This document shows, one piece after another, positions 4,831 to 57,211 of a stretch of DNA of 64,000 nucleotides (positions are counted from its first letter, which is position 1; every line of letters begins with the position of its first letter). The notes under the pieces were generated by a model. It did not search any database. It saw only the letters and a program-made list of their open reading frames with translations, and was not told the origin of the DNA. Made by a program: the position numbers and the translations under genes. The DNA comes from Oscillospiraceae bacterium (GTDB lineage: Bacteria; Bacillota; Clostridia; Oscillospirales; Acutalibacteraceae), in contig SVPW01000006.1 in NCBI GenBank assembly GCA_015065645.1, positions 1 through 64,000 of the forward strand. Reading direction: 5' to 3'.

Positions 4831-6669
4831 TTAACTATTTTGAGTTTCTACGCTATCATAAGCAGAAGGCCAATTACTGATAAAATTAGCCGATGAATCC
4901 TTTTGGCCAAGCTTTCCGCTAAACTCACTTTCAGCAGCAGAATCCTCGTAAATTAAAACCGCATTTTCATCATCAAATGCCGAACTGTATCTTGAACAAG
5001 CAAAGATACCCCTATCGCTATATGATGAATCAAAGCTTACATCTGCAGAAGAAGAAAGGAATACGGTAGTATTACCTGTTACATGGTAATCGCTACTCCA
5101 TGAATACGAAAGAACACCTGAGCTTGCAAGCTCGTTATAGCATCCGCCATAAACACGCCTTGTAACAGTTCCGCCCAAAAGATTTATACGGGTATTGCCC
5201 ACCATATCGGTACCAAAGCATCCACCAAACAACTGCTGAATTGTGCCGCCTGTAAGATTAAGCATAGTATCTGTTACAACGCCCTCATAAGAACCTGCAT
5301 AAGCGCTCATGTGTGTACCACCGGAAATTGTAACATTAGTCTTGCCGCCAACAGTGGATTTACTTCCCCTACCGCCGCCGTAAATATTAATAGACTGTGC
5401 ATTATCTTTAATAACAAGATTAACATTTCCGCCAACCGTTCCGTTGATGCTACCGCCTATAATACGGCGCATAAGGCTATGATTGCTTACATCAAATTCA
5501 CCATCGTGGTTTACATTACCGCCTACCGTTACACTAACATCACCCAAAACATTACCATTTGAGCCGTTACCTCCACCTATAATATCGTAATAACTGCCCG
5601 AAAGAACTGTAATATCGGTGCTATCTACCGTGGAGGAAGCACCGCCGTAAAGGTGGGTAAGATTATTAACCGTAACATTACTGTCTATAACAAGCTTATT
5701 TCCGTTTGCATAAACATTAGCGTTATTCTGGAAATTAACGGTACAATCGGTAAATGTTACATCATCGTTGATTTTTAACGGATGAACCGCCGAAGCATCA
5801 AATACTCCACCTGAAATCTTTATTGGCTTTAAGTGATTTATCCAAATGAAATCTTCTGACAAAGTATATGTATCTGCAATATATACAGTTCCTCCCTCAT
5901 AAACCATTTCTACTGCTTTATCAAAGGTTTTTACTGCAGTTTGAGCAGTTTTACCGTCATTGCTGTCATCACCGTTATCGGAAAGATAAACTACGGTATT
6001 TGCAATATATTTTTTGAAAGCAACCAAATCTTTTACATTAAGATTACCATCAAAGTTTATATCGGCAATTTCCTCATTAAAACTTCCGATTATTCCCTTA
6101 CCTAAAAGGAAAGTCCTCAAAGCAACAAGGTCATTAGCATCGGCAGTGTTGTCACCGTTTATATCTGCCTTAACATTGCTTATAAGGTTTATACTGCCTG
6201 CGGTTGAAATATCATCAACATAAATTTTGGTATATTCACCATCAACATCACTTAAAAAGAAGCTTCCCGAAAGCACACTTACAGGATATACACCCGAAGC
6301 CGCTTTTGCGGTGCTGAAATTTACCGTGAATACAACATTTTCGCCAAAGGCATCATCATCGTATCCAAAATCATCTATAAATTTAAGTGTATTACCATTT
6401 ACCTGATAATCAAATTCATTAACAAGTAAATTCCCGTTACACTTAACCGAATTTACTGTTACAAACTCAGGCAATCCTATCTTTAAATCATAAGCACCGG
6501 TAAATCCGCCAAAACCATTAAAGGTTATGGTAAATACAGCTTCAGATTCTGCCGCTACGGTAGCCGAAGAGATAGTGATGCTTTTATCAGAATCCGCAAA
6601 AACGCAAATATTGGTTAAAAGCATAATTACAGAAACCAAAACTGTTAAAAAACGAATAAATCTTTTCAT
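4831..6669 (-). CDS. Secreted cohesin-like/dockerin/beta-helix protein
   Basis: 612 residues with a signal peptide of about 25. Residues ~28-160 form a cohesin-like beta-sandwich. A two-repeat dockerin follows at ~166-225 (ADINGDNTADANDLVALR and ADINFDGNLNVKDLVAFK, both with calcium-loop spacing). The remainder is an Asn/Gly-rich beta-helix starting VYLSDNGDDSNDGK, with repeated IYGGG/IIGGGN turns. A dockerin in mid-protein is unusual and makes this a natural precedent for a dockerin fused to a beta-helix (compare 44320/42806). The protein should be exported and may dock to a cohesin. I recognise no catalytic motif. The start has an AGGGGT site; hairpins lie on both sides of the gene. Confidence 0.8.
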   Translation of the reverse strand: MKRFIRFLTVLVSVIMLLTNICVFADSDKSITISSATVAAESEAVFTITFNGFGGFTGAYDLKIGLPEFVTVNSVKCNGNLLVNEFDYQVNGNTLKFIDDFGYDDDAFGENVVFTVNFSTAKAASGVYPVSVLSGSFFLSDVDGEYTKIYVDDISTAGSINLISNVKADINGDNTADANDLVALRTFLLGKGIIGSFNEEIADINFDGNLNVKDLVAFKKYIANTVVYLSDNGDDSNDGKTAQTAVKTFDKAVEMVYEGGTVYIADTYTLSEDFIWINHLKPIKISGGVFDASAVHPLKINDDVTFTDCTVNFQNNANVYANGNKLVIDSNVTVNNLTHLYGGASSTVDSTDITVLSGSYYDIIGGGNGSNGNVLGDVSVTVGGNVNHDGEFDVSNHSLMRRIIGGSINGTVGGNVNLVIKDNAQSINIYGGGRGSKSTVGGKTNVTISGGTHMSAYAGSYEGVVTDTMLNLTGGTIQQLFGGCFGTDMVGNTRINLLGGTVTRRVYGGCYNELASSGVLSYSWSSDYHVTGNTTVFLSSSADVSFDSSYSDRGIFACSRYSSAFDDENAVLIYEDSAAESEFSGKLGQKDSSANFISNWPSAYDSVETQNS

Positions 6670-20706: not shown

Positions 20707-20740
20707 ATTTTTTCCTCCTATCGGATTAAACTTCAAAAGC

Positions 20741-20780
20741 TTAGGTAAAGCAACCGAAAAAATCCGATTACTTTACCTAA
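20741..20780 (-). promoter_or_regulatory. Hairpin with possible pseudoknot to the ribosome binding site of 17896-20706
   Basis: TTAGGTAAAG (20741-20750) and CTTTACCTAA (20771-20780) form a perfect 10-bp stem. On the mRNA its loop contains AUCGGAUU, which is fully complementary over 8 bases to AAUCCGAU lying directly before the AGGAGG of the binding-protein gene. Loop pairing could hide the ribosome binding site. The regulatory role is inferred. Confidence 0.45.
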
Positions 20781-20782
20781 AC

Positions 20783-20812
20783 TGCGGAAACTACCAAATA
20801 CAAATTTCCGCA
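20783..20812 (-). other. Intercistronic hairpin, 8-bp perfect stem
   Basis: TGCGGAAA (20783-20790) pairs with TTTCCGCA (20805-20812). It directly follows the stop of 20827-25512 on the mRNA and stacks next to the 20741-20780 hairpin. No U-run follows. Confidence 0.5.
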
Positions 20813-20826
20813 ATTAGGTTTAAATA

Positions 20827-33337: not shown

Positions 33338-33362
33338 ATTGATTATGCTTATTAAAAATTCA

Positions 33363-33403
33363 AAACCCGCCATACACAATCATCTATTGTGTATGGCGGG
33401 TTT
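33363..33403. terminator. Bidirectional terminator, 18-bp perfect stem
   Basis: AAACCCGCCATACACAAT (33363-33380) pairs perfectly with ATTGTGTATGGCGGGTTT (33386-33403) around a 5-base loop. T-rich sequence flanks both sides. It lies between convergent genes, the AraC regulator and the esterase at 33406, and ends block I. Confidence 0.9.
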
Positions 33404-33405
33404 AT

Positions 33406-34392
33406 CTATTTTATTGCTTCATATATTCTTTTGCTTAAATTAATTTTAGTTGGCGGATGAATATCAAATGTTTCACAAACATCAGCTGATTTTATAACCT
33501 TTACATTGTGAGTGCGTTCTACAATTTTTTCCTGAGATTTTTGAATACCATGCCAGGCATCATCATTTCTTTCGTCCCAATCGGCTATCTGAACAACGGC
33601 AAACGGCAAATTTTCATCCATAAAATCCTCTCTCCAGCGCTTTATTAAAGCTTCAAGAAGATCCGTATATATTTTCCATTCGCCTTTGCCTGTATTTGAT
33701 TCACCCTGATACCAAACAACATTTCCTATGGAATACGGCACTATAGACTGTTGCCTTACGCCATAAAGTGTTCCGCTGATATTATGCGGACCGTGAACAT
33801 ACGGAGAATCGTATTTTTCTTCCTTTGGGAGATAAAAGCGCTCATCATCGGCAATTTCTGCAGGCAACCAGCTTTCAATAACCGAAGAACCCATATAACA
33901 GGCGATAATTCCAACCGTTATTCCCTTTTCCTTACTCATCTGAGTGGCTAAGTGATAACCTATTGCAGAAAAATGCTGTGCATTATCTATAGTACATTTT
34001 ACCCAGCCATCCTCAGGATGAAAATGACCCTGACCCTCATAATGCTTAGCATTAAAGCAACGCACAAGCGGGTTTTCCTCATAATCAGACTTTGGATATG
34101 AAGAACCGCCCAAAGACATTGCAATATTAGACTGCCCTGCAAGAAGTATTACTTCACCCACATAAACATCAGAAAATGTGAGTTTTTCGCCGTTTAAATC
34201 AATATATAAATCATAAGGACCGCCATAGGTAAGCTCAGGCAATGTTAAAAGCCATTTATCCCCTGTAAACTTACCCTTAACAATATTATCTGCAATTTGT
34301 GCAGTAACGGTACCGCTACCCGTTCCGTAAAGCTTTATCGGCTTATTTGCCTGCAAAACCATACCGTTTGTAAAAATTTGATTTATCTTCAT
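33406..34392 (-). CDS. Sialate O-acetylesterase-like carbohydrate esterase (SASA domain)
   Basis: 328 residues, no signal peptide, so probably cytoplasmic. It opens with the family's typical IFTNGMVLQANKPIKLYG strand, then VGEVILLAGQSNIAMSL with the GQSN block (Ser88). WYQGESN follows in the middle, and DIHPPTKINLSKRI carries the C-terminal Asp/His pair. These are the landmarks of SASA-type acetylesterases, which in plant-glycan loci remove O-acetyl groups from sugars. It is shorter than the ~600-residue sialate esterases and lacks their extra domain. Last gene of block I, three bases after the GH36 gene. Confidence 0.88.
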   Translation of the reverse strand: MKINQIFTNGMVLQANKPIKLYGTGSGTVTAQIADNIVKGKFTGDKWLLTLPELTYGGPYDLYIDLNGEKLTFSDVYVGEVILLAGQSNIAMSLGGSSYPKSDYEENPLVRCFNAKHYEGQGHFHPEDGWVKCTIDNAQHFSAIGYHLATQMSKEKGITVGIIACYMGSSVIESWLPAEIADDERFYLPKEEKYDSPYVHGPHNISGTLYGVRQQSIVPYSIGNVVWYQGESNTGKGEWKIYTDLLEALIKRWREDFMDENLPFAVVQIADWDERNDDAWHGIQKSQEKIVERTHNVKVIKSADVCETFDIHPPTKINLSKRIYEAIK

Positions 34393-41190: not shown

Positions 41191-42684
41191 TTATATTATA
41201 ATAATCTTTCCTGTTTCATCCTCAAAAACATCTTTTGCAGTAAGGGATTCATCAGCCTTTACAAACGGAATTACATTTTGTTCGGGCGCAAGCGTTAACC
41301 CACGATATGCAAACTGATTTCCCTTTTCGCAAATATATGTATTGCCGCTAAATGTCGGCAGCCATCTTTCATTACCTGCCGCTAAAACAATTATAGAGGT
41401 ATTATGCTTTATGGGGCGATCGGGTGAAGAAGGAAGCGCACGGTCAAAAATATTATTTTCAACCGTAAAATTACCACGGGTTAAATTATAGCTCTTATGC
41501 CAACCGTTTATATGTGTTCCCATATTCCAATCCTTATGAAGAAGGGTGCGCTGTTGACCGAAGCCGTAGCCCGCCATACGCATAATATTATCCTTTATCA
41601 CAACGCTATCCATTAAAACCGGAGCTTCTGTTGTGGCCGATCTTTTTGCAAAATACTCAACCGAATATATACATCTTTCAATAAGGTTTGACTGATAACA
41701 AACATCCTTAAAGAGAAGACCTACAGAATGATTTGTACCCTGCTGATGGGTTACTCCTGCATCATAAACATCGTGAATCCAGCAATTTTCAACGGCATAG
41801 CCATCACAATAAGAATGAATTTCAACGCCGTTACCGTAACGGCAAGGAATATATTGGTTTTCCTGTGCGCCTTTACCATAATATGCCAATCCGCCGCCGA
41901 TAAAGCCTATTTCACAGTTTTGTACGGTTATATTTTTCATAAATCCGCCGCCTATACCGTGGGCACCGCCAAATTTTACGGCAATATTATCTATTACAAC
42001 ATTTTCGCTGTTATAGGTAAGAAATACGGTGTAAATACGGTCATTAAATTCTATTGAATTAAAGATTTCACCGGGATTTCCTTTATCACAACGGAGAAGC
42101 AATTTACCCTTTTTAGAGGTTGCGTTACTGTTATTAAGACTTACAGCAATATCTTCAGGGATTAAAGATAAAAACTGCATATCAGAAAGCTCTTCTATGC
42201 CAAATTCATATTTACCGTTAATAATTTCAGGGCAACGCTTTACGGCATATATTTCACCATCATCAAAAAAGATAGAGCCTATATCTATCATATCACGGTA
42301 ATAGCACCATACATTTGAAGTTCCTTCTAAAAGACTCCATTTTTCTGCTCCTTTACCGTTTTCAGATGAGCTTGTTAAAACAGGCTTTTCGCCCTCACCG
42401 TAAGAAGAATATGTAACATTACTGCCAACTGTAAGCTGACCACGGAAAACATCCCCACGTTTAAACAAAACAAATGAGGGAATTTTATTTTCCTTAGTAA
42501 ACTCATAGTTCACCTTAGAAAGTGTTTTCCATGGCTTTTCGGGAGTTTTGCCGTCATTATTATCGTTTCCGCTGTTTGAGACATAAAAAACTGCCGCATC
42601 AGCCGGTGGCACAATACTTTTACTGTTAAGTATTTTAGCCTTCATTTCATCAGCTTTAATATCTACGCTTTTAATAATGTCCAT
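41191..42684 (-). CDS. Parallel beta-helix protein, signal-less paralog
   Basis: 497 residues from ATG at 42684 (MDIIKSV), 6 bases after GGAGGAG; the in-frame TTG upstream lies on that site. No signal peptide. After an N-terminal ~30 residues (EMKAKILNSKSIVPPADAA) the beta-helix starts FYVSNSGNDNNDGKTPEKPW. The centre has HGIGGGF, YGNGVEIHSYCDGYAVENCW, IHDVYDAGVTHQQGTNHS and WNMGTHINGWH. The same motifs recur in 42806-44275 and partly in 46580-48112. A polysaccharide lyase or glycosidase is likely from the fold, but I cannot name the family. Confidence 0.7.
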   Translation of the reverse strand: MDIIKSVDIKADEMKAKILNSKSIVPPADAAVFYVSNSGNDNNDGKTPEKPWKTLSKVNYEFTKENKIPSFVLFKRGDVFRGQLTVGSNVTYSSYGEGEKPVLTSSSENGKGAEKWSLLEGTSNVWCYYRDMIDIGSIFFDDGEIYAVKRCPEIINGKYEFGIEELSDMQFLSLIPEDIAVSLNNSNATSKKGKLLLRCDKGNPGEIFNSIEFNDRIYTVFLTYNSENVVIDNIAVKFGGAHGIGGGFMKNITVQNCEIGFIGGGLAYYGKGAQENQYIPCRYGNGVEIHSYCDGYAVENCWIHDVYDAGVTHQQGTNHSVGLLFKDVCYQSNLIERCIYSVEYFAKRSATTEAPVLMDSVVIKDNIMRMAGYGFGQQRTLLHKDWNMGTHINGWHKSYNLTRGNFTVENNIFDRALPSSPDRPIKHNTSIIVLAAGNERWLPTFSGNTYICEKGNQFAYRGLTLAPEQNVIPFVKADESLTAKDVFEDETGKIIII

Positions 42685-42762
42685 AATTTTCTCCTCCAAT
42701 TAAAGCATAAAAATAAAATCATTTTACTAAATAACCTTATTTTTATGTTTTATATGGTATCC

Positions 42763-42792
42763 GACCTCTCAGTGATTCATTACCGAGAGGTC
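42763..42792 (-). other. Intercistronic hairpin
   Basis: GACCTCTC (42763-42770) pairs with GAGAGGTC (42785-42792), with two further inner pairs after a mismatch. It lies between the two beta-helix genes. No U-run follows on the coding strand. Confidence 0.5.
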
Positions 42793-42805
42793 AGATAAAT
42801 AAATA

Positions 42806-44275
42806 TTATTTGGAATATTCTATAAAGAACATTTCACCTGTTGTATCACCCAAGAAATCAGATACGCTGAAATCTTCTGTATAGGTTGTAAAATAACTTG
42901 AATTAAAGTTTTCACTGATGTTTAAACCGATATAGCCGAATTTACTTCCCAGGTAATGAATATAGGTGTTGCCCTCAAATCGGGGCAAATATTCTTCACT
43001 TGCCGCAGCTACAACAATAAATGAGCTGTTTACACGGCTACCGTTAGAAAGATCCCAATAAATGCAACGGTCGAAAATATTATCCTTAATAACAAAGTTT
43101 TCAGCATAATTATAAGCATTATGCCAGCCCATAATATGAGTACCCATATTCCAGCCATTTTCAAGCAAATAACGCTGTTCGCAGAAGCCTTCTCCTGCAT
43201 TTCTCATAATATTATCGCTGATTGTTACATTTATCATCTTAACAATATCGCCTGTTGTAGCCGATTCTTTAGCAAAATACTCTACGGAATAAACGCAGTT
43301 TTCAATAAGGTTATTTGTATATAAAATATCCTTAAACTCCAATTCCTTTGAATGGTTAGTGCCCTGCTGATGGGTAATTCCCGTATCATAAATATCGTGT
43401 ATCCAGCAGTTTTGTACGGTATAACCGTCACATCCGGCATTTACCTCTACACCATTACCGTAACGACCGGGTAAATAGGTATTTTCTGCACTTTCCTTTA
43501 AAATATACTGTTGAATTCCGCCGCCGATATATGCTACTTCACAATTTTGCACCAAAAGATTTGTTTGGGCGCTACCGCCTACACCGTGAGCACCGCCGAA
43601 TTTTATATTGAGGTTATCAACGGTTACATTTTCAGTATAGTTTGGCAAGAAAACAACATATAATCTTTGAGAAAACTCTATAGAATCATAAACCTCACCG
43701 GGATTACCTGCTTCACAGCAAAGATAAAGCTTACCGAGAGTTGAAGCCGCATTGGAATTATTAAGTGCCAAAGCTTCTTCTACAGTGAGTTCCGTCATAA
43801 ACTGATTATCTGACAAAATTTCATAACCAAATTCAAATTCACCGTTTATGATTCTGGGACATTGTTTTATAGCATAGCTTTCTGCATTATTAAAGAATAT
43901 TGCACCAACATCAGGCATTTCATCTTCGTATACCCAAATATTGTCGGTACCCGAAACACGAGTCCATTTAGAAGCTACTGCTCCGTTTTCCGGAGAAACG
44001 GTAATTATCGGCTTAGCACCGTTACCGTATGCAGTATAAGTAACATTACTTTTTGCCAGAAGCTGTCCACGGAAGGTATCTCCCCTGTTAAAGCAAATAA
44101 CCGTTTTAGCACCATTTGCGGCGGCTACAACTTCATTTACCTTAGAAACAGTTTTAAAAGGAGTACTTTCCGTGCCGTTATTATTGTCATTTCCGTCCTC
44201 GGAAACATAATAAACGGTAGCATCTTGTGGAATTTCCATTGACTGGGTTGCCAAAATTGAGTTTTTCTTATACAT
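42806..44275 (-). CDS. Parallel beta-helix domain, possibly expressed as a frameshift extension of 44320-46524
   Basis: 489 residues if started at ATG 44275, but that ATG has no ribosome binding site. Coding-like sequence continues upstream in frame (LIKPEADKVAEIDVLS) with no ATG, GTG or TTG until it runs into the last codons of the dockerin gene. That entry point is exactly the -1 frame after the heptamer at 44323-44329. The body is a beta-helix starting VYYVSEDGNDNNNGTESTPF, with YGNGVEVNAGCDGYTVQNCW, IHDIYDTGITHQQGTNHS and WNMGTHIMGWH. It is closely paralogous to 41191-42684. As a fusion it would be exported; as a separate product it would stay inside. An assembly indel in the A run is the main alternative. 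Confidence 0.7.
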   Translation of the reverse strand: MYKKNSILATQSMEIPQDATVYYVSEDGNDNNNGTESTPFKTVSKVNEVVAAANGAKTVICFNRGDTFRGQLLAKSNVTYTAYGNGAKPIITVSPENGAVASKWTRVSGTDNIWVYEDEMPDVGAIFFNNAESYAIKQCPRIINGEFEFGYEILSDNQFMTELTVEEALALNNSNAASTLGKLYLCCEAGNPGEVYDSIEFSQRLYVVFLPNYTENVTVDNLNIKFGGAHGVGGSAQTNLLVQNCEVAYIGGGIQQYILKESAENTYLPGRYGNGVEVNAGCDGYTVQNCWIHDIYDTGITHQQGTNHSKELEFKDILYTNNLIENCVYSVEYFAKESATTGDIVKMINVTISDNIMRNAGEGFCEQRYLLENGWNMGTHIMGWHNAYNYAENFVIKDNIFDRCIYWDLSNGSRVNSSFIVVAAASEEYLPRFEGNTYIHYLGSKFGYIGLNISENFNSSYFTTYTEDFSVSDFLGDTTGEMFFIEYSK

Positions 44276-44319
44276 AGAGAGTACATCAATTTCGGCAACC
44301 TTGTCAGCTTCCGGCTTTA

Positions 44320-46524
44320 TTAGTTTTTTGAGTTAAGTATATCAGATCTTATCTGAAGAACATCGGCTGCAGCAAGTGTGCCGTCCTGATCCATGTCTGC
44401 ATAGATATTATAAACTTCATTTGCAGTATTCTTCTTTACACGAACGAGGTCCTTAACGTTGATGGTATCATCGCCGTTAGCATCGCCTAAATAATCAGCA
44501 TAATTATCAACTGCAAAGCTCTTTGCAAAATTGAAGTCATTAGTATCTGTATAAACGAGCATACGCTTATTGGATGAGAATTCCTTATAGCTTCCAACTG
44601 CTGCGTTAGAAGGATTCCAGATGCCTGTTGTAGCATCTTCGGACCAACCGTAGCCGCCCATCTTAAAGTCGCCGTTTATGATAAGGTTTGCACCAACCTT
44701 ACCGTCAGTAACCTTTCTAAGTTCAAAGTTGGTATACTTAACAAGGTTTACGGCACCATCCTTCATGGCAAAACCAACCTTTACAGGAACCATACCTGTG
44801 GTGTCATAATTGCCCGTTGCAAGGGTGCTCATATCAACGGTATAGGTATATTTCTTATAACGGGTATCAACAGTAACACCCTCGGTAGCGGGGGTAAGGT
44901 CTATTCTTGTACCGCCGCTTGCTGTACGGTACATAAATGCAAGAGGCTCAGCGGTAATATTGCCGTCATACATAGCAGAGAACTGATATGTAGCTGTGGG
45001 ATCAACCCAAAGGATCTGACCAAACATTGTGCCGTCTTGCTTAGCGGTATTTTCTACTGCATAAGCATTAGCAACAGTATCGGTTGTGGTAACTGCAAAC
45101 TGGGTAAAGGTTGCACCGCCTGTACCGCCAACGAGAGCTGCGTTACCTGCGCCGTCAAGAATATAATCGGTTACGGTTACATCCTTAGCAGACCAGTGAT
45201 ATGTACCCTTGAAGTGCTGTAATGTAACGGTGTTTGCACCTGTTGCTTCGTCATAGCTGATAGAAGCCTTAATAGCAATATCTACAAATTCGTTCTTACC
45301 GGAACTCTTTGTCTCAAAAGAGAAGCTATTGAGAAGTACCTGGCTTACAATATCGGTCTTGGCATCATTAAGACCCTGCTTATAAAGATTTACTTGTACA
45401 TTTTGGTTGTTTGCATTAAATGCAACAGAAACATAATATCCGTATGCGGCAACTTCATTATTAGGACGATTAACCGTATTGGAGCTTATCCATACATAAG
45501 CGGTAGAAGCAACATAGGTTGCAACATCATCGGTATAGCTGTGCGGATTTTTAATAGTAGCCATTACAGACTGATTAACAGCTGCGCTCTTAACAAACTG
45601 AGCTGTGTTACGCTGGTTAGGGTTAGTACCTGCTGCTATAACAAGCTGACCGTTTGATACGGAAGCAGCAGTATTGCCATTAACGGTCATAAAATCATTT
45701 GCAAAATCAGTTGCGCTGAAATAAGATGTAGAAACAAGTGTTTTTGCAACATCGTTATCGGTGGTATAGTAGCCAAATGCCTTATAATCAGCGGTAGCCT
45801 CTCCTACAGCGCCTGCTGCATTTGCAGCAAGACCTACATGACCCTTTACCTGAAGCTCGGACTCATTATCTTCAAAGGTTTGAGTGAACATAAGGTTTGT
45901 ACCCTTATAAATTGCTACATTTACAGCAGTAGCTTTAGCAATTTCATCATAAAGAGCGCTTACACGAACGGTTACATCAAGATATAATCCGCTACCGGTA
46001 CTATATGGGTCAACGGTATTTAATTCGCCGATTTCTGTTAAGGTATAGGTATCAGTTTCATTATAATGAGCCTTATAAAGTTTTGCGGTGCAGGTACGGT
46101 TCTTATTTAAAAGCTTTACATAGTAACCTGTTGCACGGTCAGCCTGACCCTCAACCGCATTCATTCTTACCCAAATAACTGCGTTGGTGTTTGTGTCAGC
46201 ACCTGTTGCAACTGTAGCAGTTACGGTTTGATTAAGAGAAGGAACATTGTGATACCACATTGAAGCTCTAACATTATTAGCTTCTCCAATGCTCAAAACG
46301 CCATCAGCAATGGTAGCCTTTTTGTTATTGCCCCATGCAGTAAAGTTTGCCTTGAAATCTGCTTCGTTAAAGTATGAAGAAGCAAAAACCTTTGTATTTG
46401 GAGCTGCGTTTACAGCTGTTGAAGCAGTTTCCTCTGCTGATGCGAACATTGCGGGAATAGCAGAGCAAATCATAGCAAGTGCTAAAAGTAGCGACAATGC
46501 GCTTTTAATTAAGTTCTTTTTCAT
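44320..46524 (-). CDS. Secreted lectin-like/dockerin protein
   Basis: 734 residues from ATG at 46524 (MKKNLIK), after GGAGG at normal spacing. A signal peptide (~28) is followed by two ~200-residue lectin-like beta-sandwiches (SSYFNEADFKANFTAWG and TSYFSATDFANDFMTVNG openings). Next comes a module GQILWVDPTATYQFSAMYDG ending in NLIINGDFKMGGYGW, the same module that recurs in 50504-57211. A terminal dockerin (GDANGDDTINVKDLVRVKK, ADMDQDGTLAAADVLQIR) follows. It ends in LNSKN at a slippery heptamer that can lead into the beta-helix frame. It probably binds glycan outside the cell and docks to a cohesin. Confidence 0.85.
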   Translation of the reverse strand: MKKNLIKSALSLLLALAMICSAIPAMFASAEETASTAVNAAPNTKVFASSYFNEADFKANFTAWGNNKKATIADGVLSIGEANNVRASMWYHNVPSLNQTVTATVATGADTNTNAVIWVRMNAVEGQADRATGYYVKLLNKNRTCTAKLYKAHYNETDTYTLTEIGELNTVDPYSTGSGLYLDVTVRVSALYDEIAKATAVNVAIYKGTNLMFTQTFEDNESELQVKGHVGLAANAAGAVGEATADYKAFGYYTTDNDVAKTLVSTSYFSATDFANDFMTVNGNTAASVSNGQLVIAAGTNPNQRNTAQFVKSAAVNQSVMATIKNPHSYTDDVATYVASTAYVWISSNTVNRPNNEVAAYGYYVSVAFNANNQNVQVNLYKQGLNDAKTDIVSQVLLNSFSFETKSSGKNEFVDIAIKASISYDEATGANTVTLQHFKGTYHWSAKDVTVTDYILDGAGNAALVGGTGGATFTQFAVTTTDTVANAYAVENTAKQDGTMFGQILWVDPTATYQFSAMYDGNITAEPLAFMYRTASGGTRIDLTPATEGVTVDTRYKKYTYTVDMSTLATGNYDTTGMVPVKVGFAMKDGAVNLVKYTNFELRKVTDGKVGANLIINGDFKMGGYGWSEDATTGIWNPSNAAVGSYKEFSSNKRMLVYTDTNDFNFAKSFAVDNYADYLGDANGDDTINVKDLVRVKKNTANEVYNIYADMDQDGTLAAADVLQIRSDILNSKN
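44323..44329 (-). promoter_or_regulatory. Slippery heptamer A AAA AAC before a stop codon (candidate -1 frameshift site)
   Basis: In the frame of 44320-46524 the end reads TCA AAA AAC TAA, so the heptamer is in the correct X XXY YYZ phase. Slipping back one base gives CTA ATA AAG CCG, which is the frame of the beta-helix gene. The stop is immediately 3' of the site. A short hairpin (TCAGAT/ATCTGA) lies a few bases 5'. Downstream only a weak stem is visible. Confidence 0.5.
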
Positions 46525-46529
46525 TTTTA

Positions 46530-46592
46530 TTACCTCCAATAATATTTTTTGCCATTGGATGTTTGCGTATGGAATTGGGTTAACTGATCCAT
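46530..46592 (-). CDS. Possible 20-codon leader peptide
   Basis: AAGGAGGTGAA lies directly before ATG at 46592, inside the last codons of the upstream beta-helix gene in another frame. The frame runs 20 codons and its stop (TAA) lies on the GGAGG site of 44320-46524. Ribosomes on it would reach that site, so coupling is possible. Spacing from GGAGG to ATG is only 4 bases, and chance is a real alternative. Confidence 0.25.
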   Translation of the reverse strand: MDQLTQFHTQTSNGKKYYWR

Positions 46593-48112
46593 TTCACCTC
46601 CTTAGGTGAAGAATCAATTTGAGATACAATGGAACTAAATTCCGATTGGTTGGTGGCACTTAACCAGCCATACCCCGGCATAGACAAAATATCCTTTGTT
46701 TTGCCGGCTCCCTGATAATAAGTGTTTCCACTTAAATTGATATCAGGCTCTTTTGGAGAATCGCCATGATAGCCCCATATAATTAAAGCGTGTGTTGAAA
46801 GATCAAAAATATTATTACAAACATTCATACTTGAAATGAAATATTGATACTGTGCTCCTCCCGCTATGTGGCAGGTAACAGAGGGATTATAACGCTGGTC
46901 TCCCCAACCGTAGCCTGCAAAACGGCAGATATTTCCCGAAATTTCTATATTTCTCATATCACCGTCAGGTTTGGTATGATAGCTTTCACGCTTTTGGTTC
47001 CACAGCTCTATTGACATACTGTGATATTCAAGCAGATTGTTTATAAACTTAACATTATCGTAAACGGCATAGTAGCTTCCCTGGAATGTTATACCTGTAT
47101 CATAGCACTGATATACCCAACAGTTTTCAACCGTTGTATTTGAAGCATTATCCCAGAACTGTATTCCGTTTCCGTAGCGGCCTGTAAGACCTGCTGTCAT
47201 ATATGAACCGCCTATCCAACCGATTTCGCAGTTAGTAACGGTTATATTATCATGGAATCCTATTGCCTGAACGCCGAAGTTTCCGGCATATTTCATACAG
47301 ATGTTATCAATAGTAACATCCGAAATTTCGCTGTTAATGGTAAAAATAGCACATTTTGTACCGATTTCAATATCCTTATAAACCTGATTAGGTCTACCCT
47401 TATCAAGATATAAATAAAGAATATTATCAGTAGAATTATGATAGAAATCGCCGTTTTTGGTAAGAGTAAGAAGTCCCGGTTGCTTATAACCTACTGCTTC
47501 ACCGTGGTTAAATACTACTATACCCGCATCAAGAAGCGGAAGGCTTAATTTCCATACATTTTTCTTTTTAGACGGTTGCCAATAACCTGCTTTTGAATAG
47601 TTTTGCGGCGAGCCGTAAAGCGCAGGCTTATCACCCTTACCGTAAGCACCATAGCTCACGCCCTCTTTACAGAAAATCTGTGAAGAAAGGCGGAATACGC
47701 AACCGCGCTCAAAAAGTACCGCATCTCCCTTTTTCATATTCCATGCGTTAAGAGATATAGCATCTGTTGTTGCCCAAGCGGTTTCAGGAGTAAGACCGTC
47801 ATTTTCATCATTGCCGTTTTTAGAGGAAACATAATACTTTGTACCGGTTATATTAAGATTATCCTCGGAATTAAGTATTTTGCTTCTCATTGCCTCTGCC
47901 TGCTCGTCAGATTGACCCGACATCGGACGCATAATATTTGCAGTATTACCTTCAGGCACTATTTCATTTGCCATAAGGTTAACCGATTGGATTTTATCTG
48001 CGGAATCCCCCGATACATCAACTTCCTTTACCGTATCGGGTTCATACACGCACGAACAAAGCATAAGCATACATATAATCAGCGAAATAAGCGATAATAA
48101 TAACTTACGCAT
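46580..48112 (-). CDS. Parallel beta-helix lipoprotein
   Basis: 510 residues. The lipobox MLCSC (Cys21) marks it as a membrane-tethered lipoprotein. A linker (~22-85) ends AEAMRSKILNSEDN, resembling the N-terminus of 41191-42684. The beta-helix then starts KYYVSSKNGNDENDGLTPE, with YGNGIQFWDNASNTTVENCW and VYQCYDTGITFQGS in the centre. The three beta-helix paralogs here thus differ in location: lipid-anchored, signal-less, and possibly fused to a dockerin protein. A surface lyase or glycosidase is inferred. A GAGGAG site precedes the start. Confidence 0.75.
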   Translation of the reverse strand: MRKLLLSLISLIICMLMLCSCVYEPDTVKEVDVSGDSADKIQSVNLMANEIVPEGNTANIMRPMSGQSDEQAEAMRSKILNSEDNLNITGTKYYVSSKNGNDENDGLTPETAWATTDAISLNAWNMKKGDAVLFERGCVFRLSSQIFCKEGVSYGAYGKGDKPALYGSPQNYSKAGYWQPSKKKNVWKLSLPLLDAGIVVFNHGEAVGYKQPGLLTLTKNGDFYHNSTDNILYLYLDKGRPNQVYKDIEIGTKCAIFTINSEISDVTIDNICMKYAGNFGVQAIGFHDNITVTNCEIGWIGGSYMTAGLTGRYGNGIQFWDNASNTTVENCWVYQCYDTGITFQGSYYAVYDNVKFINNLLEYHSMSIELWNQKRESYHTKPDGDMRNIEISGNICRFAGYGWGDQRYNPSVTCHIAGGAQYQYFISSMNVCNNIFDLSTHALIIWGYHGDSPKEPDINLSGNTYYQGAGKTKDILSMPGYGWLSATNQSEFSSIVSQIDSSPKEVKWIS

Positions 48113-50503: not shown

Positions 50504-53500
50504 TCAGTTAGTCTGTTTACGCTTTTTTCTAACCAAAATAACAATCACGAATACAATACCTGCTGCAACAACTACTATACCGCCGTAAAGTGCTAATGTT
50601 AACGGAACATTAACTTTACCTTTAACAACAACCTTTTTAACGGTATCGGTAACGGTGTTATTGTCATTTTTATCAGCCATTACCTCATCGTCCTCACCGA
50701 AACTCAAGAACCAATCTCCGTCATCCCACAAAGCATCGTTTGTATCATTAACGAAAATTGTTTCGTCAAGCGGTAATAGTTGTGCAATGGTATAGCCACT
50801 TGTCCAGAAAATACCTTTTTCGTTTACAGGGGTGATACCGAAGCCGAAGGTTACAATCCATTTATAGAAGCCATCCTTAAAGTCAGCATTTTCAAACAGG
50901 TTTGTTTCCGTACCCACTTTTCTGAAGCAAAGATCGGTAAAGTAGCATATAGGCTCAAACTCACCTGTTGATATACCTATAAATACCGGAGATTTTCCTG
51001 TAGAATCCAACCATGCTTCACTTGGTACTTTAAAGGTAAGGGTTGTTCTGCAGTTAGGATCATCCATAGTTTCTTCAAAAGATGCAACCTTGCGTATTGC
51101 GATGAAATATGCCTGTCTGTCCTTATAACCCTTTGCTGTAATCTCTTCGTCCGTAATAAACGGATTATCGGTATAGTAAAGTATAGTAGGTTTAACCGAG
51201 TTCTGACGGATGTATTTAAAGCGCATTGTAAATTCATATTCCGTTTTTGTTTCAAGCGATATTATCTGACCGATTTTACCGTAGGTAGAGGTTACGGTTT
51301 CGGGAATATGAAGCATATACTTGCCTTTATATGTGGAATAATCCACATCAGACGGAATATCAGGTACAATGAGCGTATTATCGTCAAGCTTAAGCTTTTT
51401 AGCATCATAAGGTAAAAGCTCAACATCGTTACCCGGACGAACAAACTCGTCAACAGCAACAACTATGCTTGATTTAATACTGTTATAGAAGTAGTTGCTG
51501 TTTATCATCCATCCGTAGAAGCCCTGTTTGAAATCAGCATTTACGAAAAGATTATTCTTATTAGCGTCATTCTTCTCGTATAAATCGAAATCATAGAAAT
51601 AGCAGTTATTACCCGGCTCACCCGTTGAGAAGCCTACAAATACTGTTGCCATTCCTGTTTGAGGATTTACATAAGCCTCCTCGGGAACGGTAAATGTATA
51701 TGTGCAACGGCTGCCATCCCTTATCATAAGCCAGCTAAACTCTTTACGCTTATCGGTGCTCGGAGAAATCTGCTCATCGGGAACTGTATGATAGAATGCT
51801 ATAGGTTCCGCCTTATTTCTCGGGTCATAACCGAAATCTACCGAGTAAACATAGGTCTTACCAACCTCAAGCTCTATCATCTGACCTACTTTTCCGTATT
51901 CATAACCTGCTTTACCTGTAAGGTGAAGCATAAATTTATCTATCTTTGAGTAATCAATATCAGTACCGTCAGATGAAGAAGCCTTGAAAATCTTATCATA
52001 CTGTGATTTAGAAAGATTACTCTTTAAATTAAGCTTATTTTGAGCGCCTACGCTTGAGCCGTAAAGTCCGGCATAATAAGCCCATTTATTAGAGGTTATA
52101 GCTTCAGACCAACCATACATACCCATTTTAAGCTCGGCGTTTGTAAGGAGGTTAAGACTGCTTCCCTCTTCTGTTAATTTTAAGTTGCTGTAACAGTAAA
52201 CATCTGCACCTTCGGTTGTAAAGCCTACGAATACCTGCGCCAATTCACCGTATCCGTCACCTTTTTTAGCAAGGGGCTGATTATTCTTTTTAGCCCAATC
52301 GTTAATACAGAATGTATAGCTTACGGTACGATAACCGTCCACATCCGAAACAGTACCTGTTGAAGATGAAATGGTTATCATTGAACCCGAAGCCGACCAA
52401 TACTTAACCGAAAGTCTTGCGTTAGCCTGACTTACACGAGCAGAGAGCGTATATGTTTTATTGGGGTCAACTGTAACCTGTTGACCTGCCATTGCAGCAA
52501 TATTTGTACTTACAGGCTTTTCAATATAGGAGTAATTATCTCTTACACCATCCGAAGAAGCGTACTCAAAACGAGTAACTTTTACAGGTGTTGTATTTCT
52601 TGCAGAGAAGCCTGCATAACCCGGAGTTTGCAATTCCTCGGTATAATCAAAGAAGGTATTTTTAAGCATTAAAGCGTATGTACCGTCTTTTTTACCTGCA
52701 GGATATTTATAGGTGGTTACGGTAATTTTTGTAGGTGCTGTACCCTCAACTGCAATTTCCATACGGAATGTACGGTTATCGGTATGAGTGCCGCAGGTAC
52801 CTATCAAGGTATCGGTTCCGTCAGAAGTGCGTTTGTAAAGTGTGGGTGTGGCACCGTTCGCAAATACATAGTAACCAGAAACGGTTGACAAATCGTTCTT
52901 ATCCGCAAGAACAGCTCTTGCCCAAACAACCGGTGAAACACCGCTTGTAGCAGAGTAATCAAGCGCTACAACCTGATTTGTATGTGCTTCGCCGTAAAGC
53001 GAGAGGCTTTCATAATGCTTTGATGTTCCGTTTACGGTAATATTATCAGCATTAGGTGTAGCCGCACCGTTAGTTTGCCATTTGCCGTTATAACCGTTTA
53101 CAAAATCGGAAGAAAGTGAATAATCAAGGTTTGCATTGGTGTTTTCAAGTACAGGACGGTCGCTTACTACATCATCTCCGCCTTCACCTTCGCCGCCGTC
53201 ACCGGAACCGCCTTCGCCGCCGCCTTGGTTACCGTTATCGGGATCTTCTTCCTCGCCAAAATCAACATCGCCAACGGCGAATAATGATTTGTATGTATCA
53301 ACACTTGGATTTACAAGGCTTACCCTTGAACTTGGGCTATTGGTATCACCCTCAAAGGAAGAACGGATTGCAAGGAAGGTTTCGTTTGCTTCATCACTCC
53401 AGCCATAAAGACCTAATTTAAGATCTCCGTTTATAAGAAGATTTTTCTTATCTGCGTCATTCTTTTCATACAGAGTCATTTCAGCATAGCCCATCTGGGT

Positions 53501-56500
53501 AATCTGAGCCATACGGAAGCCTACCACAGCTAAAACCTGCGAAGTTGAACCATTTGTGAAATTGGAATCAACAAAGGCGGCTTTACCTGAATTTGCAGCA
53601 GCCCATTCATTAATATTAAACTCACATGAAACTCTGCGCCAATTATCAGCCGTACTTAAAGTTCCGCCGTTTGCAAATATACGCTGAACACCGTTTGAAT
53701 TACTGTTGGTGTTATACTGAACCCAAAGACCAAGATTTGTTTCGGTGGTTTTTCCCTCGAAAACATAAGTCTTATTAGGATCAAGAGCTACTACCTGACC
53801 ATAGGTGATATATGAATTTACACCTGCGTTTTTCTGCAAATATGAGGTTTTCGCCTTTACACCGTCAGTAGAAGTATATTCAAATAATGTGATATTTGAA
53901 ACGGTATCATCACTTGAGCCTACTATCACATTTGCAACACCCGCCATACCTGCATCCTGCAGATCGGCTGTGTTATCATAGAATGTATTTTTATAAAGGA
54001 AGTAACATTTCTTCTTATCGGTTGAATACTTATATGTTACAACGCTGATTTTAGTTTGTTCTGTTCCTTCAACTAAAATCTCAAAACGATAAAGGCGGTT
54101 ATCGGCATGAACGAAGCCGCAGTTACCGATAAGCTGTTCTTTATAATTATCACCATCCTTATAACGCTTATAAAGCTGTACTGTACCTGAATTTTTATAT
54201 ACAGCATAATAGCCTGTAATTGTATTGGGGTCATTCTTATCATCCCAATCGGCACGAGCCCATACTATCGGCTTTTTATGCTTATTGGAAGCGGTTACCT
54301 CAAACTCAACCGTTACACGCTGTTCTGTTTTATTTACAGCATAGAAAGCGGTATTTTTAAGGTGACTGTCAGTGCTTGAAGAGCCTGTTATATTAAGGCT
54401 ACCAGTTGTAATATCAGCCGAGGATGAAAGTATCCAGCCGCTATCATTACCTGAAGCAAAATCGGTTTTATAATCAAGCGGTGTTTTAAGGTTTGCGGTA
54501 TCATTTACATAATAACCGCCTATTACAGTTTTACCATCCACAGACTTAATAGTTATTGTGTGCTGTGTATCTGCGGCATTTGACATAATTACCTGTGTGC
54601 GGTGGTCATTTCCTGTGCGGTAAAGATCTATAATACCATCACCAAAATCACCGTTTGCGCCCTTTTTATAAGGAACACCATCAATTTCAACATACACCTT
54701 ACCGCAACTGCTGCCTGTCATAAAGATCACACCAAAATCAGTTCCGGTAAATGTATATGTAAGGGTTGAGCCCGGAGTGGTTGATTCTACCCTGCCGGAG
54801 GTATATGTGCTGCCAAACTTACTGCTTATAGTGGAGAATGAACCTGAAGCCAAAGACCAGCCGTTTGAAAGCGGTATTTTATCAGCAGTTATAATTGTCG
54901 GATTGCTTATAACAGTTGATGAAAGAGTAGTTGCGGGGTTTTGTTTCTTAACTAATCCCGTGGGAGGAACCTTTTTAGCTTCTTTAATAATATCGTCAAG
55001 CTGTTCTGCTATATAATCCGCAAAAATCTTATAACCTGCATCTAAGGGATGAACACCATCACCCGTTTTATAAAGCTGTTCATAAGCATCGGAAGAATTA
55101 TCTGTGCGGTAAGGTTTAAGTCCTTCCGAGTTCCATGCAAGTCCATCTGCAGCAGCCCTTGCCTTAAGCGGTTCACGCAGGTCAACCAAAGGAAGTTGAT
55201 ATTTTTTAGCAAGTTCAAGTACCGCCTTTGAGCCAGGAAGCGTGGTTTCGGACAATGACCAATGGTCAAAGGTTAAAACCAAAACTATATCTATATTTGG
55301 GTTAGATTTTCTTGCAGTTAAAATCAAGGATTCCAACTGTCTTAATGTATTATTATAGGAATCAACTTTCTCTGGATTTGCTTTTCCCGAAATTGCATTA
55401 TCATAGAGGTAATGATCGTTTATGGGGGCATCTATAAACAACAAATCTGTTTTATAATTCTCAATTCTGCCGTAGTTATACAAGGCAAAATGTGTGCCGG
55501 TTGAACCTACTGCAGCATTTTTTGAATTAACGGTTGCCTGAGGATAATTTTCGGCAAACCACTTTGTTGTAAGGGCACGCCAAGAGGTGGTTTCGGTATT
55601 GGATGCACCGTGACCGCTTGTAACCGAACCGCCCATATAGGTAATATTTAGCTTTTTATCAACAGTGAGTTTATAATAGGTATTGTTCAAATCCACCGCT
55701 ACCTTTCCAAACATACTGTTAAATTCATCCTTATCTGAACAGGTATAGCAGGTGACAAGATTTTTGCCTGTAACGCTATCCCCTACTTCATTTGCCTGAT
55801 AATTGATATATACTCTTTCCTGATTATCATTCCAAGCATATAATCCCAACTTGAAATCACCGTTTACAATAAGGTTGCCACCCTTGCGAGCGCCTGTTTC
55901 GGGGTCAACCTCATAAAGCGCAAAATCAGTAAGAGTTGCAAGCTTATTTTTGCTGGTATCAATACGGAAACCAACTATTGCACGGGTTCTGTTACCGCCA
56001 TTAGCCCACTGAACGGAGTCAATTTGTTCAGCAGGGCTTGCACCGCTTTTACTTACATATTCATTTATGCAGAATGTTGCTGATGAAGCAGTAAAATATC
56101 CCGACTCCACCGAAACGGTAGGATAATCAATGAAAACTCTGTGCTTATTGCCACTTTGATTATTACCTGCTTTACTGTAATACTCTACCCAAAAGCGTTC
56201 AAGAATACTTACATCGGTATTAGCGGTAAGGGCTGTTAGTTTATATGTCTTTGATGGATCAAGGGTTACAACCTGTGCAAAAAGACGACCTGTGGTATCA
56301 ACATCTGTTCTTTGCACATAATTATAAGTTTCTTCTTCACCCTCAGCCACATCGGTGGTTATATAACGGAAGTTCTTTACATATGTGTTGGCGTTACCGT
56401 TAGGATCCATTGCAACACCGGCTGTACCTGATGTATTTTGTAATCCGCTTTCATCAACATAGGTATTTGATGCTACAACACTCCAAGTATAACCCTCATT

Positions 56501-57211
56501 CTGAGTTCCCATTCTTTTATGCACACGCACATTAATAACAGTGGGGCTACTACCTGTAATGGTCATATCAATACGGAAAACACCCGGAAGTGACGGTGTT
56601 ATGGGGTTTGTATATCCCGAGATGCGCATAAGCGTGGTTGCATTTTCGGTAGCGCTCTTGCGTATAAGCACAATAGGATCATTGCTTACAGAAGAAAACC
56701 TTACAAAATATCCTGTTATGGAGGAATTGTGCAGTCCACGGTCGTTACCGTTATACTTATCTCCCAAGCTTACTCTTCCCCATAAATAATTGTATCTGTT
56801 ATTATTCCATGAAGAAGGATTTGCAGAAACATTATATTCAACACTTATGTGCTGATCTATAGAAGCTTTATCATTGCTTACAGCCATAAAATTAGATAAA
56901 TAACTTGACGAACCTGTGTATGTAAGGGTTGGATTATCAAGCTTTAATCCCGAACCGTTTGTGAGGTGTGCGCTTTTATAAGCAACTTTCCAAGCGGTTT
57001 CATTAAAAGAACCATCGGTAAAATCCTCATTTATAAGTTCTTTATATGAAGTGGGATTTTGGGAATCAAAAATTGTTGCTGCCTGCGTTTGTATGGAGTT
57101 ATTAAAAACAAGAACTCCCGAAAAGGCAGAAATGAGAATAAGCAATGCTACTAACAAAGCTATACCCTTTCTTGCAGACAAGCGTAATTGCGAAAATTCA
57201 AATTTCAGCAT
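50504..57211 (-). CDS. Giant membrane-anchored surface protein with internal SGNH esterase domain
   Basis: 2235 residues. The N-terminal hydrophobic segment (~16-37) acts as signal or anchor. A lectin-like domain (~55-290) and a GQxxxLDPxKTY module (~300-500) precede an SGNH hydrolase: ITYMGGSVTSGHG (Ser529), PINDHYLYD (Asn598), DGVHPLDAGY (Asp718, His721). Further binding domains and module copies follow, opening LINGDLKLGLYGW, LTNAELKMGMYGW, FVNADFKQGFYGW and FENADFKDGFYKW. An acidic Gly/Asp/Glu linker lies in the second half. A final membrane helix and RKKRKQTN tail anchor it. Probable cell-surface deacetylase and glycan binder. It interrupts the permease pair 57237/49501. Confidence 0.85.
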   Translation of the reverse strand: MLKFEFSQLRLSARKGIALLVALLILISAFSGVLVFNNSIQTQAATIFDSQNPTSYKELINEDFTDGSFNETAWKVAYKSAHLTNGSGLKLDNPTLTYTGSSSYLSNFMAVSNDKASIDQHISVEYNVSANPSSWNNNRYNYLWGRVSLGDKYNGNDRGLHNSSITGYFVRFSSVSNDPIVLIRKSATENATTLMRISGYTNPITPSLPGVFRIDMTITGSSPTVINVRVHKRMGTQNEGYTWSVVASNTYVDESGLQNTSGTAGVAMDPNGNANTYVKNFRYITTDVAEGEEETYNYVQRTDVDTTGRLFAQVVTLDPSKTYKLTALTANTDVSILERFWVEYYSKAGNNQSGNKHRVFIDYPTVSVESGYFTASSATFCINEYVSKSGASPAEQIDSVQWANGGNRTRAIVGFRIDTSKNKLATLTDFALYEVDPETGARKGGNLIVNGDFKLGLYAWNDNQERVYINYQANEVGDSVTGKNLVTCYTCSDKDEFNSMFGKVAVDLNNTYYKLTVDKKLNITYMGGSVTSGHGASNTETTSWRALTTKWFAENYPQATVNSKNAAVGSTGTHFALYNYGRIENYKTDLLFIDAPINDHYLYDNAISGKANPEKVDSYNNTLRQLESLILTARKSNPNIDIVLVLTFDHWSLSETTLPGSKAVLELAKKYQLPLVDLREPLKARAAADGLAWNSEGLKPYRTDNSSDAYEQLYKTGDGVHPLDAGYKIFADYIAEQLDDIIKEAKKVPPTGLVKKQNPATTLSSTVISNPTIITADKIPLSNGWSLASGSFSTISSKFGSTYTSGRVESTTPGSTLTYTFTGTDFGVIFMTGSSCGKVYVEIDGVPYKKGANGDFGDGIIDLYRTGNDHRTQVIMSNAADTQHTITIKSVDGKTVIGGYYVNDTANLKTPLDYKTDFASGNDSGWILSSSADITTGSLNITGSSSTDSHLKNTAFYAVNKTEQRVTVEFEVTASNKHKKPIVWARADWDDKNDPNTITGYYAVYKNSGTVQLYKRYKDGDNYKEQLIGNCGFVHADNRLYRFEILVEGTEQTKISVVTYKYSTDKKKCYFLYKNTFYDNTADLQDAGMAGVANVIVGSSDDTVSNITLFEYTSTDGVKAKTSYLQKNAGVNSYITYGQVVALDPNKTYVFEGKTTETNLGLWVQYNTNSNSNGVQRIFANGGTLSTADNWRRVSCEFNINEWAAANSGKAAFVDSNFTNGSTSQVLAVVGFRMAQITQMGYAEMTLYEKNDADKKNLLINGDLKLGLYGWSDEANETFLAIRSSFEGDTNSPSSRVSLVNPSVDTYKSLFAVGDVDFGEEEDPDNGNQGGGEGGSGDGGEGEGGDDVVSDRPVLENTNANLDYSLSSDFVNGYNGKWQTNGAATPNADNITVNGTSKHYESLSLYGEAHTNQVVALDYSATSGVSPVVWARAVLADKNDLSTVSGYYVFANGATPTLYKRTSDGTDTLIGTCGTHTDNRTFRMEIAVEGTAPTKITVTTYKYPAGKKDGTYALMLKNTFFDYTEELQTPGYAGFSARNTTPVKVTRFEYASSDGVRDNYSYIEKPVSTNIAAMAGQQVTVDPNKTYTLSARVSQANARLSVKYWSASGSMITISSSTGTVSDVDGYRTVSYTFCINDWAKKNNQPLAKKGDGYGELAQVFVGFTTEGADVYCYSNLKLTEEGSSLNLLTNAELKMGMYGWSEAITSNKWAYYAGLYGSSVGAQNKLNLKSNLSKSQYDKIFKASSSDGTDIDYSKIDKFMLHLTGKAGYEYGKVGQMIELEVGKTYVYSVDFGYDPRNKAEPIAFYHTVPDEQISPSTDKRKEFSWLMIRDGSRCTYTFTVPEEAYVNPQTGMATVFVGFSTGEPGNNCYFYDFDLYEKNDANKNNLFVNADFKQGFYGWMINSNYFYNSIKSSIVVAVDEFVRPGNDVELLPYDAKKLKLDDNTLIVPDIPSDVDYSTYKGKYMLHIPETVTSTYGKIGQIISLETKTEYEFTMRFKYIRQNSVKPTILYYTDNPFITDEEITAKGYKDRQAYFIAIRKVASFEETMDDPNCRTTLTFKVPSEAWLDSTGKSPVFIGISTGEFEPICYFTDLCFRKVGTETNLFENADFKDGFYKWIVTFGFGITPVNEKGIFWTSGYTIAQLLPLDETIFVNDTNDALWDDGDWFLSFGEDDEVMADKNDNNTVTDTVKKVVVKGKVNVPLTLALYGGIVVVAAGIVFVIVILVRKKRKQTN

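Follow-up and report, generated by a model that had tools for sequence, protein, structure and literature searches.

We have analysed a stretch of 64,000 nucleotides (nt) from an Oscillospiraceae bacterium (GenBank assembly GCA_015065645.1, contig SVPW01000006.1, positions 1 to 64,000; hereafter "the window"), where a gene for a dockerin protein meets a beta-helix gene on the minus strand. Our analysis indicates that programmed -1 ribosomal frameshifting quite probably makes both products from one start: the dockerin gene ends with the slippery heptamer A AAA AAC, while the beta-helix is located in the -1 frame and lacks a standard start codon at its N-terminus. Frameshifting at this heptamer, joining the dockerin protein and the beta-helix, had been proposed in an initial annotation made from the letters of the window, and it is supported by the layouts of three further loci (L125, L185 and L194) that we describe below. 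The elements of the junction are the following:

44320..46524, minus strand: dockerin gene, the upstream open reading frame (ORF), 734 amino acids (aa), with a C-terminal dockerin
44338..44490, minus strand: dockerin type I domain PF00404, a Pfam match
44323..44329, minus strand: slippery heptamer A AAA AAC, with 0-frame codons AAA AAC, in the X XXY YYZ phase and abutting the stop
44320..44322, minus strand: TAA that ends the dockerin ORF in the 0 frame, with a second in-frame TAA next to it
42806..44323, minus strand: -1 frame extension, beta-helix P0001, 505 aa, open from 44332, without a standard start at the family N-terminus

The Shine-Dalgarno (SD) sequence GGAGGT precedes the ATG of the dockerin gene at 46524, and the N-terminus of the 734-aa product, P0002, is signal-peptide-like by eye; its PF00404 match scores 25.7 bits (cut-off 22.9) in one search, but only 21.3 bits in a search with the whole protein. 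The 3' end of the gene (46524-44320) reads ...CTT AAC TCA AAA AAC TAA TAA, and the heptamer at 44329-44323 is confirmed to lie in the correct phase, as had been proposed. The -1 frame is closed by a TAA at 44335-44333, so that its overlap with the dockerin frame is limited to 13 nt (44332-44320), within which A AAA AAC is the sole complete slippery heptamer; because of this bound, a -1 shift is possible across the heptamer only. The stop at 44320 is at the normal position for dockerin ends in this genome: its 26 PF00404 matches (L099-L124) comprise 16 that are C-terminal, 9 that are internal and 1 that opens a tandem pair, and 15 of the 16 C-terminal dockerins end 2-10 aa past the domain match (5 aa in the dockerin protein), the remaining one ending at 25 aa. 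The nine internal dockerins are separated from the C-terminus by over 60 aa, in contrast to classical cellulosome enzymes, where the dockerin position is C-terminal.

Past the heptamer, the -1 frame reads LIKPEADKVAEIDVLSMYKKNSILATQSMEIPQDATVYYVS... and remains open for 505 codons, as far as 42806, so the claim that this frame joins the beta-helix gene holds. The beta-helix gene was also said to have neither a ribosome binding site (RBS) nor a start upstream of its first ATG, and this is borne out: the frame upstream of ATG 44275 contains no ATG, GTG or TTG, and the best SD-like match before this ATG is a 4-mer; an SD match of at least 5 bases precedes some start within the first 80 codons in 29 of the 33 other window genes that were scanned. 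The CTA codon of P0001 aligns with the start of standalone relatives (MIKATKEF..). When the 16 residues upstream of the first ATG were shuffled 1000 times and compared with a profile of 8 relatives, the real N-terminus scored 107.3 bits versus a shuffled mean of 102.4 (standard deviation 0.9), and 1 of the 1000 shuffles reached the real score; since the 16 residues match the family profile, the family N-terminus of P0001 sits on the dockerin stop, without a standard start. The nearest paralog is located directly downstream:

41191..42684, minus strand: beta-helix P0003, a paralog with 52% identity to P0001 that has an RBS and an ATG of its own

In a tree of 65 of the 66 beta-helix domains, P0001 and P0003 group in an eight-member clade that consists entirely of standalone proteins (support 96/91), with terminal branch lengths of 0.41 and 0.40, respectively; L053, the sole fusion here whose dockerin is confirmed by Pfam, and three fusions that are dockerin-like by eye (L013, L022 and L047) are placed outside this clade, an arrangement that counts against a recently broken fusion. 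P0001 itself has no match to PF13229 (right-handed beta-helix) at E 0.001, and its ortholog in L125, P0004, matches PF13229 with 30.4 bits (cut-off 25.9). A sequence search of the PDB gave best values of only E 0.62 and 0.72, the similarity to the pectate lyase PelN is far below the cut-off, and the AlphaFold model of P0001 was too poor for use (predicted local distance difference test, pLDDT, 45); the weak similarities to PF13229 (in the ortholog) and PelN suggest that the beta-helix is perhaps active on polysaccharides.

The same layout occurs in a syntenic ortholog, L125 (JAGAPN010000033.1), which belongs to the Clostridia metagenome-assembled genome (MAG) RGIG8656 from the cecum of a water deer. 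A scan of genome contigs with the single protein gave no confirmed relative; a scan with an alignment profile, covering one genome per species in 84,980 bacterial and archaeal species, then gave L125. The 80 best of the 427 stretches confirmed by this profile scan were retrieved, and the best-segment identity is 56% in L125 versus at most 42% in the other 77 loci kept from these 80. Protein searches for a closer ortholog matched 33 of 70 genomes of the genus at E 0.001 (best match outside the own genome 42%), 8 of 398 in the family at 1e-45 (at most 41% outside the own genome) and, among relatives, 2 of 396 at 1e-85, i.e. the own genome and one 41% match; searches within the genus and the family of G462 matched G462 alone (1/10 and 1/398 at 1e-85). 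No relative of P0002 was found in the other 69 of the 70 genus genomes at E 1e-20, and scans of viral contigs gave no matches.

A four-gene order is common to the window and L125, and includes, upstream of the dockerin gene, a second beta-helix gene:

46580..48112, minus strand: lipoprotein-like beta-helix gene, with a 64% identical counterpart at the same place in L125

The L125 counterpart of the dockerin protein, P0005, is a 786-residue ORF that is 37% identical and has no Pfam match at E 0.05, the startless beta-helices of the two loci are 57% identical, and P0003 is 54% identical to the counterpart at its own place. The L125 junction reads CAG GGA AAC TGA TAA, so that a different X XXY YYZ heptamer, G GGA AAC, abuts the stop in the same phase; the beta-helix is likewise in the -1 frame, and the first ATG, GTG or TTG occurs 29 codons past the stop. 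The initial annotation had named homologs with their own starts and no heptamer as evidence that would tell against frameshifting: these do exist as paralogs (P0003, L036, L039 and L040), whereas the sole syntenic ortholog that was found has a heptamer.

A second pair of loci from the same beta-helix family, L194 (JAGANE010000129.1) and L185 (JAFTXE010000105.1), hereafter pair B as opposed to pair A (window and L125), has junctions that read AAAAAAC TGA, followed in the -1 frame, with no convincing start, by the beta-helices KKLTEPVS.. (L194) and KKLIDLGL.. (L185). The two beta-helices are 64% identical and the two upstream proteins 37% identical; the upstream protein of L185 has a signal-peptide-like start by eye and no clear similarity to P0002. 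The first ATG, GTG or TTG past the stop in the -1 frame is codon 16 in the window, 29 in L125, 72 in L194 and 5 in L185. In a 162-row tree, built quickly with LG+G4 and supported by the Shimodaira-Hasegawa-like approximate likelihood ratio test (SH-aLRT) only, the four heptamer sites fall in two separate places, and the trait needs two changes.

We have also surveyed 220 distinct beta-helix starts, looking in each case for an ORF of at least 60 codons upstream that ends inside the N-terminal extension; duplicates were removed by sequence key only, here and in the ORF-end counts below, and some remain. The survey gave 34 overlaps in the -1 relation, which count at least two genes twice (L126/L235 and L147/L240), and 43 in the +1 relation. 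The stop is immediately preceded by a heptamer in 4 of the 34 -1 overlaps (window, L125, L194 and L185) versus none of the 43 +1 overlaps, and any heptamer within the last 20 overlap codons is present in 6 and 2, respectively; a first version of the survey (170 starts, 100 codons) had given 19 and 18 overlaps. A strict filter for startless genes left 12 candidates in the -1 relation, 3 with a heptamer, and 20 in the +1 relation, none with a heptamer; this filter drops L185 for its TTG, and several candidates in each group resemble antisense or chance frames.

The chance level of such motifs was counted in 295 partly overlapping sequences (1.43 Mb), using ORFs of at least 150 codons on both strands, some of which are spurious. 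In-frame X XXY YYZ motifs occupy 1628 of 351131 codon pairs, or 151 of 10603 pairs with AAC as second codon, and a terminal heptamer occurs at 9 of 919 ORF ends, the four focal genes included; past the stop, the -1 frames of the four focal genes extend over 500 (truncated at the edge of the locus), 510, 511 and 536 codons, and those of the remaining five over 11-22 codons. Mismatches at codon positions 1, 2 and 3 of the beta-helix frame amount to 0.33/0.27/0.58 in pair A and 0.25/0.23/0.56 in pair B: the -1 beta-helix frames are under protein-level constraint in both pairs. Taken together, the heptamer in the ortholog, the second pair, the ORF-end counts and the lack of terminal heptamers among the 43 +1 overlaps count against an assembly error, a broken fusion and chance.

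Downstream of the window heptamer, a structure is predicted in the RNA:

44241..44305, minus strand: predicted RNA hairpin, its base 17 nt past the heptamer, with a lower stem common to L125 and 2 compensatory pairs

The 83 nt past the window heptamer fold with -28.9 kcal/mol (z -6.3, none of 200 shuffles as good), and for eight relatives the z values of the initial 83 nt lie between -2.5 and +1.4; in a comparison of the four sites over the same length, a stable structure is predicted after each, with z from -2.5 to -6.0 (L194 -4.2, L185 -3.3). The window and L125 have 14 predicted pairs in common after the heptamer, 2 of them compensatory, which is the maximum over 303 ORF windows (mean 2.3), and the 5 windows that reach 14 common pairs all overlap the post-heptamer site; 8 of the 26 pairs of the window hairpin, most of them near its apex, cannot form in L125. 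On the coding strand, the most stable predicted hairpins (to -39.5 kcal/mol) are found elsewhere, at the gene ends 20708-20820, 33338-33430 and 42758-42840, and are probably terminators.

In the mechanism that we propose, most ribosomes would stop at the UAA at 44322-44320 and release the 734-aa dockerin-ended protein, while a minority would shift back by one base on the heptamer A AAA AAC (44329-44323), perhaps with help from the neighbouring stop codon and the downstream RNA structure, and then read 505 codons. The long product would be a secreted protein of ~1,239 aa, with the dockerin at an internal position and the beta-helix at the C-terminus; slippage would be expected at a low rate, giving mainly the dockerin-ended form and little of the long form.

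Several observations weigh against frameshifting. AAAAAAC and GGGAAAC are both described as low-efficiency heptamers in E. coli (PMC4066793), only two orthologous pairs with the layout were found, with one ortholog each, and the clade nearest to P0001 otherwise consists of standalone genes with their own starts; moreover, the -1 frame of L185 has a TTG five codons in, 11 nt past the stop, although without an SD by eye. The RNA structure is also open to doubt: 25 of 6392 windows of the same strand, several of them inside genes, are at least as stable as the hairpin, and the structure common to pair B is unremarkable, its 8 pairs being reached by 27 of 158 windows. The conserved stem of pair A begins 17 nt past the heptamer, versus published distances of 5-8 nt (as given in PMC4066793) or 5-9 nt (as given in PMC5009743); three of the four sites (window, L194 and L185) have a predicted outer helix at 5-9 nt, which is absent from the L125 prediction.

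The main rival to frameshifting, and a serious one, is termination-reinitiation on CUG or AUA, by which a separate beta-helix would be started on a non-standard codon that overlaps the stop (AUA in UAAUA/UGAUA, or CUG in CUGA); we regard it as rather unlikely. As far as the CTA codon, the N-terminus of P0001 can be aligned gap-free with standalone relatives whose sequences begin MIKA.., one base of the stop is shared with an ATA in the window and L125, CTGA occurs in three of the four junctions, and the TTG of L185 lies close to its stop, all of which would suit reinitiation, as would the description of four- and one-base overlaps as the commonest gene-pair arrangements (PMC10666635; also PMC6728339). 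However, a standard start codon that overlaps the stop or lies a few nt from it is absent from the window, L125 and L194, where only CTA, CTG and ATA are found, and the first 16, 29 and 72 codons, respectively, offer no such start, nor does the window offer a good SD. ATG 44275 is located 44 nt past the stop, and in E. coli a spacing of 38 nt is described as having lowered reinitiation by 80-90% for two gene pairs and as having eliminated it for another (PMC10666635). No single non-standard start fits all four junctions, the window having CTA and the others CTG, while the ATA is replaced by ACA in L194 and by ATT in L185; and coupling needs no slippery heptamer, yet one is present at all four junctions. 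Reinitiation, or a start lost by the change of ATG to ATA at a TAATG overlap, was the explanation favoured first, and was displaced by L125, L185 and L194.

A beta-helix that has decayed, i.e. a young pseudogene that lost its start behind an intact dockerin gene, would fit the missing standard start and RBS, both of which the paralog P0003 retains, but we consider it very improbable: the startless state is common to L125 at 57% identity, with codon-position differences that are still protein-constrained, and P0001 and P0003 have terminal branches of nearly the same length. The initial annotation had raised the alternative of a one-base assembly or consensus error in the A-run, which would hide a plain in-frame fusion, and the window does come from a MAG of 51 contigs that is 85.7% complete, in a genus where in-frame dockerin to beta-helix proteins are present (L052 and L053); nevertheless, the split of L125 at GGGAAAC, without a long homopolymer and in an independent assembly of another species, means that an A-run error cannot explain the layout, the split recurs in L185 and L194, and the stop lies where dockerin genes normally end, so that we hold this alternative to be extremely improbable. 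Transcriptional slippage on the A-run, instead of ribosomal slippage, has in its favour the six A before C in three of the four cases, and against it the GGGAAAC of L125, which has no run longer than 3; six-residue runs are short for polymerase slippage, and the likelihood of this explanation is close to negligible.

Beyond the window, programmed frameshifting leads to a broader reading on which our judgement is evenly balanced: a non-mobile gene family of gut Clostridia may have gained, at least twice independently, an X XXA AAC-before-stop switch that adds a beta-helix to part of a secreted carbohydrate-binding or dockerin protein, in which case the ribosome would set the ratio of docking-only to enzyme-bearing protein from one mRNA. 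Among the nearest known systems is the insA-insB' of IS1, where A AAA AAC, close to the 3' end of the first ORF, is used to make InsAB' and insB is described as having no separate product, being made only as the fusion (PMC12428005); IS1, however, is a mobile element that encodes a repressor and a transposase, whereas the dockerin locus would encode secreted proteins and its heptamer abuts the stop. The IS3 family (e.g. IS911) also fuses two overlapping ORFs by a -1 shift, with a heptamer and a downstream structure, but 72% of its heptamers are A_AA.A_AA.G or A_AA.A_AA.A and its structures are generally 5-8 nt away; in the same account, AAAAAAC and GGGAAAC are the next most frequent heptamers of the IS1 and IS3 families after these two (PMC4066793). 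The gene content of the IS3 family is unrelated to that of the dockerin locus. Tail-assembly genes, designated g-t, offer a further comparison. In archaeal viruses the same two heptamers, G_GGA_AAC (HCTV-1) and A_AAA_AAC (HCTV-2), are described for g-t expression (PMC5009743), albeit not in bacterial genes.

In the same genus, L052 and L053 have a dockerin above the Pfam cut-off followed by a beta-helix domain, but in one continuous ORF; the match of L052 was too short for the beta-helix tree, and the beta-helix of L053 is not among the nearest relatives. The gene at 4831-6669 of the window, which had been put forward as a natural in-frame counterpart, proves to be one, with a dockerin at residues 168-222 and a repeat-rich domain after YLSDNGDDSNDG.

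Frameshift extensions of non-mobile genes are known: the GeneTack study is described as having 146 candidate prokaryotic families, mostly non-mobile and several of them tested, and 55 non-mobile candidates are given for the E. coli group (PMC4066793). The main text of the GeneTack paper contains no occurrence of "dockerin", "glycosid" or "lyase", and our search of the open-access literature, made partly by title, found no case of programmed frameshifting in dockerin or glycoside hydrolase genes. If the proposal is true, a single gene would yield two extracellular proteins in a stoichiometry fixed by frameshifting, which would be a translational route to building extracellular enzyme complexes; gene callers would split such proteins, assign a false start to the second half and overlook its secretion.

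Two further observations concern the two protein families of the junction. The window ORF 50504-57211 encodes 2235 aa, with a stretch that resembles the dockerin protein P0002 and an end that is membrane-anchor-like by eye. The genomes of L126 and L128 (G1020 and G1021), MAGs of ~3.1 Mb, have at least 63 matches to the beta-helix family each (63 scored; 90 and 95 candidates), a very large paralog expansion.

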